This document shows positions 26,013 to 33,735 of a stretch of 45,871 bases of DNA, in pieces. The position numbers were made by a program, and so were the translations under genes. The first letter of the stretch is position 1. Every line of letters begins with the position of its first letter. The stretch is from a virus. Under the pieces are notes generated by a model. That model saw only the letters and a program-made list of their open reading frames with translations, was not told the origin of the DNA and did not search any database. Location: positions 1 to 45,871 of the IMG/VR virus record IMGVR_UViG_3300031277_000005; one strand, given 5' to 3'.

Positions 26013-26221
26013 TTATTCTCTACGAAAGCGTCAAATCCGCCTGTGTCATTCAGTCGCAGAATCACAGTATTTGATTCGTCTCCAGTTTTGTATTTTGTAA
26101 TTCGTGTACAATCCAAAAACCTATCAAATGCATCGACTATTCTGGTTTGCTCAAGAGCAATATTTATAATTCCGATAGATGCATACGTGAAAGCAAGAAT
26201 TGTATTCTTTATTTTAGTCAA
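26009..26221 (-). CDS. Small protein between terminase and portal
   Basis: 70 aa, overlapping both neighbours by 4 bases (ATGA at each end), so it is translated with them. It has a hydrophobic N-terminal stretch (ILAFTYASIGIINIALEQ) and a polar C-terminus. AT-richer than its neighbours. No family is recognised; a packaging accessory or small membrane-associated role are both possible. Confidence 0.6.
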   Translation of the reverse strand: MTKIKNTILAFTYASIGIINIALEQTRIVDAFDRFLDCTRITKYKTGDESNTVILRLNDTGGFDAFVENK

Positions 26222-27654
26222 GCCACTTTCCTCTCGAGCTCACCACCAAAACCGCGTATCGGGTGAACGCCGATCATGAGATACATCCACGCATCGCGCA
26301 TGTGCTCGAGACCAATGGGGTCATCCCCTCCCTTTGGGAGAAACCCTCCGGTATGGGTAGTCTTGTCAAGCCACATGTCCTGCAACAGGACCTCTTTGAT
26401 TCCTCGAAATCCGTGTGTCTCATCAGCCATGTGTGTGTGCTTGTCTATGCTATAGGACACGCAAAAAATACGATTCATCTTCGCGGAGCACAGCGCCACC
26501 TTGGCCGATCTCATCTGCACGTCTTTGTATCGCTGTTGCCCTCTGATGGGCGTGATTGGGCACATCCATCCAAGACTTCGCATCTCCTGAATCGCCGTGC
26601 TGCCGTCCGTCTGGTACGCACCGGTGTTTGCGTCCGCACCGAGGTAGATGTGAGCAGGCGGTCCATACATTGCATGTATCTCTCTGACGACTTTCTCCGT
26701 GTCGCCGTGGTTGGGTATATACTGGGCGACGGCTACGTCCACATCGGTACCGCCGAAGGACAGAGGATTACCGGGCACCGTCTGTACGAGCAACCATGCA
26801 CTTCTCGCCCCGAGGTCGCACCCGAGCATGTACGGCAGGGCAGGCGTGTAGGCATGTGGATGCAGATTGCCTTCCGGCCAGCGCTTGACGAGATCTGCAT
26901 GATCCCAAATCTTGTTTCCCATCGCGACCCATCGCGCGTATACCTCCCGGTCCGCGTACGATGGGTCTACGTTGTCGAGGAAGTCCTCAACCATACTCGC
27001 CGGTATATGGCAGTTGTCATACGATGTCGCATGCACAACCGTCGCCCTACCGCGCTCTACGCCTCGCTGTACCACACGCTGATACCATCCGAGCCTCGGT
27101 GTTGTCGATACGCCGATCATGAGTCTGTTGGCTCTCGGCTCGCGCACAGAGGCAAACATGGCCTTCCAGCTCTTGTCTGTAGGGTCTACCGCGAGCTCGT
27201 CAAAGAATCCGGCCGCGTATGTCTGGCCACGTCCGGCGCCGTCCTTCTTGCTGTTGTAGGCGTCTCGGCCAAGGAGGTCTATCTGAGTCTCGACCTCTCC
27301 GTTGTTGTAGAAGATGATGTGGTCGCTCTTGTTTAGCTTCCAGAGCGTGCCCTCCCCCGGCACTGCCTTACGCCATGCAGGGATAAAGCTCTTCTTCAAT
27401 TCCTTGAGTGTCGGCGCAGACCAAAAGTGCTGAAGCCCTGGGTTGATATTGTGAACGGATTCCCATAGCGCCAGCACTGAGGTCGCAGTCTTGGCAGAGT
27501 GTCGACCACCAACGAAATGAGCAACAGCTCGGCGACGGTCCGGTAGCGGCTTTTTCAGCAGATTCAGCAGGTACTGACGCTGTTTCTCGGTCTTGCTATA
27601 AACACTCGGGTCCCATGGACTCACCAGACCAGATACGAGCTCGTTGCCGTCCAT
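26218..27654 (-). CDS. Terminase large subunit
   Basis: 478 aa packaging ATPase/nuclease. Walker A GGRHSAKT (49-56); Walker B with catalytic Glu AAGFFDELA (D152, E153); motif III STTP (183-186). The nuclease domain shows LGCDLGARSAW (D280), YLGADANTG (D341) and GGDDPIGLEHMRDAW (D444/D445), as in RNase-H-fold terminases. Full-length. It cuts and translocates concatemer DNA into the head through the portal. Start ATG 27652-27654, with the small gene immediately upstream. Confidence 0.93.
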   Translation of the reverse strand: MDGNELVSGLVSPWDPSVYSKTEKQRQYLLNLLKKPLPDRRRAVAHFVGGRHSAKTATSVLALWESVHNINPGLQHFWSAPTLKELKKSFIPAWRKAVPGEGTLWKLNKSDHIIFYNNGEVETQIDLLGRDAYNSKKDGAGRGQTYAAGFFDELAVDPTDKSWKAMFASVREPRANRLMIGVSTTPRLGWYQRVVQRGVERGRATVVHATSYDNCHIPASMVEDFLDNVDPSYADREVYARWVAMGNKIWDHADLVKRWPEGNLHPHAYTPALPYMLGCDLGARSAWLLVQTVPGNPLSFGGTDVDVAVAQYIPNHGDTEKVVREIHAMYGPPAHIYLGADANTGAYQTDGSTAIQEMRSLGWMCPITPIRGQQRYKDVQMRSAKVALCSAKMNRIFCVSYSIDKHTHMADETHGFRGIKEVLLQDMWLDKTTHTGGFLPKGGDDPIGLEHMRDAWMYLMIGVHPIRGFGGELERKVA

Positions 27655-31298: not shown

Positions 31299-31473
31299 TG
31301 CCCTGCGACTCCTGTGTACTGCCTTTTCTCTGCTCCGAATCAACCTTCCAGGCACCGTTTACGCGACCATATGTAGATCCGCATCGTGTGCACGTTATCA
31401 GTGTAGCTGATATTTCGTACTCTACGTTCCCGCAAAACTCGCACGCCTCATTGTCAATTTTCGCTTTCTTCAT
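31291..31473 (-). CDS. Small zinc-ribbon protein
   Basis: 60 aa. CEFCGNVEYEISATLITCTRCGS is a CxxC...CxxC zinc ribbon, followed by a charged tail. SD GGAAGG. Overlaps both neighbours by a few bases (TGA/ATG), i.e. coupled. One of several such ribbons in this block. Confidence 0.68.
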   Translation of the reverse strand: MKKAKIDNEACEFCGNVEYEISATLITCTRCGSTYGRVNGAWKVDSEQRKGSTQESQGNE

Positions 31474-31658
31474 TTTTGCCTTCCAAAATCAAGCTGCTGC
31501 GGAAAAGAACCGATCGTAAACGGCCCTGGTTCCTTGTCTTCCGTCGGCGGGCACTGTGCCCACAGTGCGTTGCAGCACACGACCTGTCTGCACCCGTCGA
31601 GCCAGGCCCAGGTTAGACGGGAACCGCAGATCGGACATCTCGCATTTTCATCGCTCAT
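31470..31658 (-). CDS. Small zinc-ribbon protein
   Basis: 62 aa. MSDENARCPICGSRLTWAW, with a second Cys cluster (GCRQVVCCNALWAQC). SD GGAGGA lies 6 bases before ATG 31656-31658. The ATG touches the stop (TGA 31659-31661) of the second frame overlapping the methyltransferase, which helps to mark that frame as a real gene end. Confidence 0.66.
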   Translation of the reverse strand: MSDENARCPICGSRLTWAWLDGCRQVVCCNALWAQCPPTEDKEPGPFTIGSFPQQLDFGRQK

Positions 31659-32673
31659 TCAAAATCCTCCATGCTGCCGACGCCACTCTTGGAACTTGGC
31701 CGTTTCCAAGTGCTCTAATGCGGTCCACTCTGTTGGCCACCCCATGAGCCACTCGACCCACATCGGGTTCAGTTGGCCACCAGGGGATGCTTCTCTTGCC
31801 AAATTTGTTTTCGGATTCCCATCGCCTCTTTTGGCCCCAAGGCTTCCTTTCGCGTCGCTCGCGATCGGCGTCGGCCAGTGATTTCGTGCTGCCATCTCCT
31901 GCAAAGATGGACGATACGGTCCGGCTCTCCCGGACCCTCCACCTTTGTTCCCTCTCCTGCAAACCGTCGGTGTCGGAAACATCTTCGCATATCCGTCCAG
32001 CGACATGTGCTTCTTGTCCTTGCTTGGTCCTGTGTTGTTTCGTGGAGTCGGGAACCACGCCTTGCAACACGGCCATTTCGACATTGATGGGAAAAGCTGA
32101 TTCCCCGTACTCGTCGGTGTAGCCAAGTATCCATATCCTATCACGGATATGGGGCGCTCCGACGTCTGCCGCCGATACACAACACCACCTCGCATCATAC
32201 CCCATCTCGGCAATGCCACTGAGGACTCCGGTAAGACCTCGCCGAATAAGCATCGGTGAGTTTTCCACGAAGACAAATTTGGGTCGTACTTCACCGACGA
32301 TTCTTGCCATTTCCCGCCAAAGCCCTGATTCCGGTCCGTCGATACCTTCTCCCTTTCCTGCGCACGATATGTTGGTGCACGGAAACCCTCCCGATACCAC
32401 ATCAACAAGGCCTCGCCATGGGCGTCCGTCAAATGTCTCCACGTCCGACCAAATAGGGAATGGGGCCAGGATACCATCATCTTGTCTCTGCGCCAGAACG
32501 GCCGCGCAGTAGACGTCTCGCTCGACGGCGCATACAGTGCGCCAGCCGAGGAGGTGTCCGCCGAGTATTCCACCGCCGGCGCCGGCGAACAATGCGAGCT
32601 CTCGTAGGCCCTCTCTAGTGCGTTGCTGATTAGCCAGGTCATTGCTGTCCTCAGAAGAGTCCACGGTCCTCAT
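31648..32673 (-). CDS. DNA (cytosine-5) methyltransferase
   Basis: 341 aa. It transfers a methyl group from S-adenosylmethionine to cytosine C5. Motif I LFAGAGGG (about 28-35), motif IV GGFPCTNIS (catalytic C99; PCT in place of the usual PCQ), motif VI ENS (137-139), motif VIII RDRIWIL (177-183), motif X ALGNGQVP (321-328). The region between VIII and X (about 190-310) would be the target-recognition part. Start ATG 32671-32673 overlaps the end of the replication gene. It probably protects phage DNA from host restriction. Most of its length is covered by another plausible frame. Confidence 0.9.
   Translation of the reverse strand: MRTVDSSEDSNDLANQQRTREGLRELALFAGAGGGILGGHLLGWRTVCAVERDVYCAAVLAQRQDDGILAPFPIWSDVETFDGRPWRGLVDVVSGGFPCTNISCAGKGEGIDGPESGLWREMARIVGEVRPKFVFVENSPMLIRRGLTGVLSGIAEMGYDARWCCVSAADVGAPHIRDRIWILGYTDEYGESAFPINVEMAVLQGVVPDSTKQHRTKQGQEAHVAGRICEDVSDTDGLQEREQRWRVRESRTVSSIFAGDGSTKSLADADRERRERKPWGQKRRWESENKFGKRSIPWWPTEPDVGRVAHGVANRVDRIRALGNGQVPRVASAAWRILNER
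31659..32480 (-). CDS. Overprinted second protein in the methyltransferase gene
   Basis: Frame shifted relative to the methyltransferase, open from 32642 to TGA 31659. It is given here from ATG 32480 (273 aa); the true start is uncertain. Contains SSWKTHRCLFGE, LPRWGMMRGGVVY, repeated 'LATPTSTGN/MFPTPTV/HWPTPIAS' strings and LNPMWVEWLMGWPTEW near the C-terminus. I recognise these strings (SWKT, WPTPT-x-x-D, LNP-x-WVEWLMG-x-P) as an established phage protein family of unknown function. Its stop is next to the ATG of the zinc-ribbon gene (TGAATG). The same DNA encodes methyltransferase motif X in the other frame, so the locus appears dual-coding. Confidence 0.68.
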   Translation of the reverse strand: MMVSWPHSLFGRTWRHLTDAHGEALLMWYREGFRAPTYRAQEREKVSTDRNQGFGGKWQESSVKYDPNLSSWKTHRCLFGEVLPESSVALPRWGMMRGGVVYRRQTSERPISVIGYGYLATPTSTGNQLFPSMSKWPCCKAWFPTPRNNTGPSKDKKHMSLDGYAKMFPTPTVCRRGNKGGGSGRAGPYRPSLQEMAARNHWPTPIASDAKGSLGAKRGDGNPKTNLAREASPGGQLNPMWVEWLMGWPTEWTALEHLETAKFQEWRRQHGGF

Positions 32674-33619
32674 CCTTCTGGTCCTGCTTGAGAGCCTCTA
32701 TAGTCCGCCTTCGCATTGCCTCGGCCCTGGTCTCAGGCCTGGGCTCGAAATCGGCTGGAATTGTCTCCCAGTAGCCCTCACGCAGCCATCGGGACAGCGC
32801 CACGATGTACGAGCCGTTGTCCCTCTGCCATTTTGGTGATTTTTTCCAGTAGCCGAGGTACTCCTCAGCCTTTACGACCGTCATGCCGGCCGCCTTAGCC
32901 GTCTGCCAGCTCTTCCAGTCCTGGGCCTTCCCCCCGAGGCGGTGACTGGGATACTTGGATCTAAACGTCTCAAATTCAACAGAGTAAGACAATCGCGCGC
33001 GAGCGCGTTGTTTCTTCTTTGGGGCTACATGAGTATTACTGTATCTACTTTCTTCTGAAAACGTAAGAGTGGGAGCGGGAGCGGGAGTGGGAGCGGGAGT
33101 GGGAGTGGGAGTGGGAGCGGGAGTGCGAACTTTTGCATGACGCTTGCATCCGCTTGCATCCGTTTGCATTGCAAAAGATTCCGTTTGCATGCAAGTGTCT
33201 GCCGTTTGCATTTCATATGCACTATCTTTTCCCCACCGTTTTTCGGCTGCTTCCCTGCGTAAGTCGCTAATAGTCTTTCCCTTTTTTCTTCTGTCGGCTT
33301 CTCGCTTGGCTCTCTTCTGGACATACTCGGGGGCATGGTCAAACAAATCGTGCACCGAATAGATCCCGTCGTCGTCGATATCGATAAACCCGGAACGCGC
33401 CAGGCCGCCGCATTTCTCGAGGGCTGCGGTGAGCTCTCCGGCGGCGCCATCCCACTCGCACGCGAGCTCGACATCAGTGGCATCGCCGATACAGGGATCT
33501 CCGGACTCATAAGCCGAACACCATAGGAGTTCCAAATATCCAATTACTGCTGGCTTAGGTGCTCCAAGAATAAGGCATAGGCGACGGAACTTGTGGTGGT
33601 TTAGCAGGGTGGGTCGCAA
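32651..33619 (-). CDS. Replication initiator (phage O / replisome-organiser like)
   Basis: 322 aa from TTG 33617-33619 (SD GAGAGG six bases upstream; a TTG eight codons earlier lacks an SD). The N-terminus is a winged-helix-type domain (NHHKFRRLCLILGAPKPAVI; GFIDIDDDGIYSVHDLFDHA), then a basic linker, a Pro-Thr-Ala repeat (about 168-185), and a C-terminal domain WKSWQTAKAAG...YIVALSRWLREGYWE resembling the helicase-loading ends of phage replisome organisers. Like lambda O, the region between the domains contains phased repeats that could be its own binding sites (origin). Its ribosome-binding site is complementary to an upstream sequence. Confidence 0.8.
   Translation of the reverse strand: MRPTLLNHHKFRRLCLILGAPKPAVIGYLELLWCSAYESGDPCIGDATDVELACEWDGAAGELTAALEKCGGLARSGFIDIDDDGIYSVHDLFDHAPEYVQKRAKREADRRKKGKTISDLRREAAEKRWGKDSAYEMQTADTCMQTESFAMQTDASGCKRHAKVRTPAPTPTPTPAPTPAPAPTLTFSEESRYSNTHVAPKKKQRARARLSYSVEFETFRSKYPSHRLGGKAQDWKSWQTAKAAGMTVVKAEEYLGYWKKSPKWQRDNGSYIVALSRWLREGYWETIPADFEPRPETRAEAMRRRTIEALKQDQKDEDRGLF
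33068..33124 (-). repeat. Hexanucleotide repeat (GGGAGY) coding a Pro-Thr/Ala linker
   Basis: About nine copies of GGGAG(C/T) on the plus strand, giving TPAPTPTP-type linker on the minus strand, between the DNA-binding and C-terminal domains of the initiator. Such tracts vary in copy number by slippage. It lies between the iterons and an AT-richer stretch (33008-33066). Confidence 0.85.
33133..33211. repeat. Phased TTGCAT iterons; candidate replication origin
   Basis: TTGCAT (fuller unit CG(C/T)TTGCAT) begins at 33133, 33144, 33154, 33164, 33185 and 33206: spacings of 11, 10, 10, 21 and 21 bases, i.e. all on one face of the helix. They lie inside the initiator gene, between its DNA-binding and C-terminal parts. 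An AT-rich stretch follows at 33008-33066 after the hexamer repeat. This is the arrangement of the lambda origin within gene O. Two of the units are extended palindromes (TTTGCATTGCAAA; TTTGCATGCAA). Confidence 0.68.
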
Positions 33620-33735
33620 AGCAGACCTCTCGAAAAACCACAACCCAACAAACCAGACGAATGATTGTGATGAGAACTCCGCGAGGTCTGCTCACTCGTC
33701 TGGCTTATTGGACTGTGGTTGAAAATTCTCATCAC
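33620..33735 (-). promoter_or_regulatory. Leader of the initiator gene with SD-sequestering inverted repeats
   Basis: Three inverted repeats occur in interleaved order: agcagacctc (33620-33629) with gaggtctgct (33683-33692); ccagacga (33653-33660) with tcgtctgg (33696-33703); gtgatgagaa (33667-33676) with ttctcatcac (33726-33735). On the minus-strand mRNA the first pair places the SD (GAGAGG, 33626-33631) of the initiator in a 10-bp stem. The order A-B-C-A'-B'-C' prevents all pairs from forming as simple nested hairpins, so alternative folds are possible. No gene is present in 33620-33766. Confidence 0.6.

Follow-up and report, generated by a model that had tools for sequence, protein, structure and literature searches.

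Two nested reading frames in a phage genome that probably encode the parts of one C5-cytosine DNA methyltransferase

When one long open reading frame lies entirely within another, does the second encode a protein, and if so, is that protein independent or a part of what the first frame encodes? The question is raised by a locus in a viral record of 45,871 bases, analyzed at full length and referred to here as the window, which also contains a terminase large subunit ORF (26218-27654). On the minus strand, an ORF in frame 0 (alpha) encloses the whole of an ORF in the +1 frame (beta), such that positions 1, 2, and 3 of beta codons are positions 2, 3, and 1 of alpha codons, respectively (Table 1). 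We consider it quite probable that the locus encodes one C5-cytosine DNA methyltransferase of two subunits, whose parts share a stretch of DNA but are read in different frames.

Table 1. Features of the locus and its immediate surroundings (window coordinates)
Feature	Position	Strand	Length	Remark
Alpha ORF, C5-methyltransferase	31648-32673	minus	341 aa	Frame 0; motifs I-VIII and X
Beta ORF	31659-32642	minus	327 aa	Second frame (+1); putative recognition-domain region and motif IX
Region A	32119-32673	minus		Alpha residues 1-185
Motif I	32569-32598	minus		Alpha, region A
Motif IV	32365-32391	minus		Alpha, region A
Motif VI	32257-32268	minus		Alpha, region A
Motif VIII	32128-32166	minus		Alpha, region A
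Region B	31782-32118	minus		PTP repeats in beta; alpha neutral and predicted disordered
FPTPRNN	32034-32054	minus		Beta repeat, region B
FPTPTVCRRG	31950-31979	minus		Beta repeat, region B
WPTPIASDAKG	31845-31877	minus		Beta repeat, region B
Motif IX-like segment, GGQLNPMWVEWLMGWPTEW	31725-31781	minus		Beta
Motif X, GNGQVP	31690-31707	minus		Alpha
GAGGA, Shine-Dalgarno-like	32648-32652	minus		5 nt before beta ATG
AGGA, possible Shine-Dalgarno	32682-32685	minus		8 nt before alpha ATG (32673)
Downstream operon ORF	31470-31658	minus	62 aa	CxxC pairs; context, outside the enzyme
Upstream replication initiation-like ORF	32651-33643	minus		phrog_9474 (3.7e-23); context

The two frames and their starts

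Alpha matches PF00145 (3.6e-30) and phrog_363 (2e-64), and its motifs I, IV (PC), VI (EN/ENS), VIII, and X occur in order with the PF00145 fold, which identifies it as a C5-cytosine DNA methyltransferase. A first-pass annotation, made from the letters of the DNA, had recognized this frame by the same motifs, all of which are present. All of the strings that it quoted from the second frame occur in beta, and it correctly placed motif X and the end of the second protein on the same bases, those that encode beta residues about 310-318. It also pointed to TGAATG (31661-31656), where the TGA of beta indeed adjoins the ATG of the downstream ORF. Both ORFs within its span of 31648-32642 are real, but the span joins the alpha stop to the beta start, and alpha begins 31 nt upstream. 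The DNA of the motif IX-like segment of beta reads EPDVGRVAHGVANRV in the alpha frame. Beta matches phrog_1008 (2.5e-19, residues 84-309); profile searches gave it no Pfam or NCBIfam match, and sequence searches of Pfam, PADLOC, and the PDB returned nothing significant. Profile searches of the downstream ORF (Pfam, PHROGs-type, NCBIfam) likewise gave no significant family match.

In related loci, the two starts are closely paired. In 202 of 245 distinct loci, an NTG lies 4 nt upstream of the beta ATG (NTGAATGAG), and the pair is preceded by a single purine-rich, Shine-Dalgarno-like stretch at -13 to -9. The beta start is ATG in 158 of 160 loci, with the choice of start slightly biased toward ATG. 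The window departs from its relatives in that the alpha start lies 31 nt, not 4, upstream of the beta start, and in that beta has a GAGGA of its own, unlike the common stretch of the relatives. The upstream replication gene ends in a TGA (32653-32651) that shares bases with this GAGGA.

Purifying selection on both frames

The second frame could be an untranslated by-product of the codon usage of the methyltransferase, and gene callers do choose different frames in different phages, much as an annotation accident would have it. Against this stands a null in which the alpha protein was held constant and synonymous codons were swapped: only one of 20,000 shuffles within the gene left the +1 frame equally open, and none of 20,000 did when the codon usage of the window was applied. 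Across 117 scorable homologues, three beta-frame stops were observed versus about 506 expected under the synonymous-swap null. Among homologues retrieved by the alpha frame alone there were two versus about 188 expected, so the use of beta as a query does not account for its openness. Stops are depleted both in the first half of the catalytic region and in the remainder.

Beta is interrupted by one stop each in loci L074, L092, and L146 (near the end of region A in the first two); these breaks, like the broken alpha of L154, could reflect decay or sequencing error. In L154, a stop interrupts alpha at codon 79, and a later frameshift is suggested by the order of the motifs; this locus has probably decayed or contains a sequencing error. 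Four other alpha frames that look broken (L066, L083, L088, and L093) are artefacts of the position at which the match starts.

Because the collections offer no close relative of the window (alpha is at most about 65% identical), selection was measured in its relatives. The first-pass annotation had suggested a codon-position substitution analysis over homologues, and this analysis supports dual coding. Substitutions were classed by their effect in both frames (NN, SN, NS, and SS, an OLGenie-like scheme), in which the SS class has few sites and ratios based on it are rough; over 27 close pairs, omega was 0.26 for alpha (bootstrap 0.18-0.34), 0.33 for beta (0.23-0.44), and 2.5 for the remaining frame.

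Region-wise values come from 66 independent pairs and two estimators (given here as first/second), with region A running from the start to motif VIII, region B from there to motif IX, and region C to the end. In region A, omega was 0.18/0.09 for alpha and 0.63/0.32 for beta. Region B gave 1.19 (1.07-1.31)/0.91 (0.69-1.22) for alpha and 0.38/0.29 for beta, and region C gave 0.36/0.25 and 0.35/0.25, respectively. As a control, the virtual +1 frame of 40 neighbouring single-frame genes had an omega of 0.84 (0.71-0.99)/0.86 (0.70-1.06). For beta in region A, the interval of the first estimator (0.55-0.73) touches that of the control, whereas that of the second (0.28-0.37) is clearly below it. Overall, with the other frame taken into account, dN/dS was below 1 and below the controls for beta in regions A, B, and C, and for alpha in regions A and C only. 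Thus, both frames are under purifying selection, which is split by region: mainly on alpha in A, on beta only in B, and on both in C.

In region B, differences at alpha codon positions 1, 2, and 3 amount to 0.297, 0.132, and 0.127, the pattern of an ordinary gene in the beta frame. This codon pattern, the synonymous-swap null, and the omega tests with neighbouring-gene controls all contradict the by-product explanation, to which we give almost no credence; at the level of selection, a chance ORF or by-product is ruled out by the shuffles and the selection tests.

Probable division of the methyltransferase between the two products

What the beta frame encodes can be approached through related enzymes that are arranged differently. 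In mycobacteriophage Tweety, gp72 is one ORF of 370 aa with the catalytic motifs, LLPTPSA, EWMMGWPAGW, and GNGVVPQQA in a single frame. Two parts of Tweety gp72 align to the window alpha, residues 1-182 and motif X at 339-363; there is no credible alignment between motifs VIII and X. The beta profile matches the EWMMGWPAGW (motif IX) segment of an actinophage C-terminal profile (Prob 97, E 1.2e-10); this profile homology is significant over motif IX only, and the PTP region matches the actinophage C-termini by repeats, position, and weak alignment. phrog_1008 spans the C-terminal part of Polka14 gp75 (3.6e-65) as well as nested second-frame proteins. In Annyong (gp78 and gp77) and RemusLoopin (gp34 and gp35), the catalytic part and the PTP/IX/X part are two ORFs that overlap by 23-32 bp. 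Finally, alpha of loci L205, L217, and L242 stops after motif VIII, and PTP repeats, LMGWP (IX), and GNGQVP (X) all lie in the full-length beta frame. On the basis of these comparisons, we take the conserved strings of beta as candidates for motif IX and the recognition region. The assignment of LNPxWVEWLMGWPxGW to motif IX is statistically supported; for the PTP region, the putative target-recognition region, the grounds are its position, its repeats, and a weak alignment.

The first-pass annotation had assigned the second frame to a separate phage protein family. This part is not supported, as the conserved strings of beta match the recognition/IX region of single-ORF and split C5-methyltransferases. 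The family concerned, phrog_1008 (PHROGs v4, labelled “DNA methyltransferase”), mixes second-frame products of the beta type with C-terminal parts of ordinary, single-ORF methyltransferases. The methyltransferase of mycobacteriophage Polka14 (gp74/gp75, our locus L165) is itself interrupted between motifs IV and VI, with two genes annotated in different frames, possibly because of a frameshift; in its relative RitaG, a longer match lies within one ORF.

C5-methyltransferases have a large domain with motifs I-VIII and X and a small domain with the recognition region and motif IX. The AF2 model of alpha (73 sequences) fits this two-domain plan: it predicts with confidence a catalytic domain (about residues 21-190) and a motif X helix (326-340), with low confidence over the approximately 130 residues between them (about 191-322). 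In Foldseek, this model matched M.HhaI (9e-14) and M.HaeIII over about 170-180 columns. Alpha itself gave no sign of a recognition domain with motif IX, given that region B is neutral, residues 191-322 are of low confidence, and the Tweety alignment is lacking there. Beta modeled alone was poor (pLDDT 56).

One explanation for two selected frames is a complete methyltransferase with an unrelated, independent second protein that arose by overprinting. The first-pass annotation had likewise proposed two functional overprinted proteins, and selection on both frames bears out that much; a methyltransferase complete in its own frame, however, is not supported, with alpha neutral between motifs VIII and IX. 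Consistent with an independent protein, beta has its own conserved start, no Pfam match, and an N-terminal part that is moderately selected and has no known relatives. However, alpha is neutral and predicted to be disordered where its recognition domain would be expected, and, since the most conserved part of beta resembles a methyltransferase, we regard an independent overprinted protein as unlikely.

Programmed frameshifting could instead fuse the frame-0 catalytic domain to the +1 recognition domain in one chimeric enzyme. Such fusion would account for the switch of the selected frame at domain borders, and one +1 shift would suffice for a complete motif I-X enzyme in L205, L217, and L242. 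Loci of the window type would need two shifts, the second a return to frame 0 for motif X. Moreover, frameshifting leaves unexplained the conserved beta ATG, the openness of beta throughout region A, and that of alpha throughout region B. We consider it very unlikely.

Two products that are parts of one enzyme are the more likely reading because, between motifs VIII and IX, alpha is neutral while beta is constrained and methyltransferase-like. In the two-subunit model, alpha would contribute AdoMet binding, the catalytic PC, ENS, and motif VIII, followed by a neutral linker, probably disordered according to the structure prediction, and the motif X helix. Beta, translated from its own ATG, would contribute the target-recognition region and motif IX, with its N-terminal part overprinted on the catalytic domain. 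Like the polypeptides of M.EcoHK31I and M.AquI, the two would assemble in trans. We infer that both ORFs are translated and that their products form an active heterodimer with a target sequence of its own. Judging from what is known of phage methyltransferases, its role may be the protection of phage DNA from host restriction, and its history may have led from a single ORF through frame displacement to the nested form.

A more elaborate version of the two-subunit model is also worth stating, although we judge it less likely than not: a domain-divided enzyme, common to a large and widespread set of phages, whose two starts, 4 nt apart behind one Shine-Dalgarno sequence, lock the supply of the subunits to each other, with a de novo beta N-terminus of roughly 150 residues that has its own role. 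That domain may act in assembly, regulation, or anti-restriction.

Known systems and distribution

C5-methyltransferases of two polypeptides have precedents in M.AquI and M.EcoHK31I (PMC3404938). The latter, which recognizes YGGCCR, is a natural case whose large polypeptide has motifs I-VIII and X and whose small one has motif IX, and fragments of M.SssI complement each other in trans, best when the second begins between motif VIII and the recognition domain (PMC3404938). Against the two-subunit model, the predicted recognition domain of M.EcoHK31I was placed in the large subunit (PMC3404938), whereas selection places the recognition region of the window in beta.

Our comparison with M.EcoHK31I is by motif description. 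The window resembles it in carrying motifs I-VIII and X on one ORF and IX on the other. The small gene of EcoHK31I is reportedly nested inside the large one in another frame, and the second ORF of the window is likewise inside the first in another frame. The window differs in the length of beta, which almost equals that of alpha, in the adjacent starts of the two ORFs, and in being phage-borne. M.AquI alpha/beta and Annyong gp78/gp77 are similar in that the catalytic motifs are on one polypeptide and the distal variable region and motif IX on another. In these pairs, however, there is hardly any overlap between the genes and the second polypeptide carries motif X, whereas motif X of the window is in alpha. 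The L205, L217, and L242 loci divide the motifs as M.AquI does, but with full-length overlap.

A nested +1 pair is already present in RefSeq, namely Paenibacillus phage Jacopo gp56/gp57, both labelled merely “DNA methyltransferase,” and phrog_1008, which the window beta matches by profile, contains second-frame products. Our literature search found no published account of the motif division for either Jacopo or phrog_1008. Other phage genes contain a second protein in another frame, such as the Rz/Rz1 lysis genes (PMC3091744) and the methylase of ShiLan, whose insertion carries an out-of-frame HNH (PMC11855218). Rz1, however, is short and the HNH lies in a mobile insertion, and neither is the other part of the enzyme of its host gene.

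Loci were collected from IMG/VR (at least 600 stretches in each of two scans) and GTDB genomes (145 stretches, mostly Proteobacteria, and also from MAGs of Verrucomicrobia, Spirochaetia, Nitrospirota, Chloroflexi, and others). Among the matches listed, 366 of 400 loci share the +1 relation of the two frames over 200 codons or more, and clustering reduced these 366 to 311 non-redundant loci. Annotated phages with the arrangement include Acinetobacter vB_AbaM_ABMM1, Salmonella S9-5, Pseudomonas PS-1 and phPA-G, Vibrio vB_VviC_ZQ26, Klebsiella vB_KpnP_BUCT711, Acidovorax Alfacinha1, Bacteroides BF1-TP2, and Jacopo; in Jacopo and in mycobacteriophage ShroomBoi, the open stretch of the beta frame begins only further inside. 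Plasmid searches turned up a single dual locus of full length, carried by a Leptospira plasmid, and a search of E. coli gave four chromosomal matches. Literature searches, which covered few subscription papers and are weak evidence of novelty, found no paper on the phage arrangement.

Hundreds of related phages have the arrangement, for which a few bacterial enzymes, M.EcoHK31I among them, offer the only rough precedent. In hundreds of phage and prophage loci, annotators record one frame, the other, or both as “DNA methyltransferase”; if the two-subunit model is true, such annotations describe part of an enzyme, and either ORF cloned alone, or the locus with one frame recoded, would give an inactive protein. 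The locus is also a clean natural case for studying how overlapping genes evolve: selection passes from one frame to the other where domains meet, and phages contain single-ORF, split, and fully nested versions of related enzymes side by side.

Two minor observations concern other genes of the window. A (P-T/A) linker in the replication initiation-like ORF is encoded by GGGAGY-type repeats (33070-33130, minus strand), and a 357-aa open frame (26263-27336, plus strand) runs antisense to the terminase large subunit ORF.
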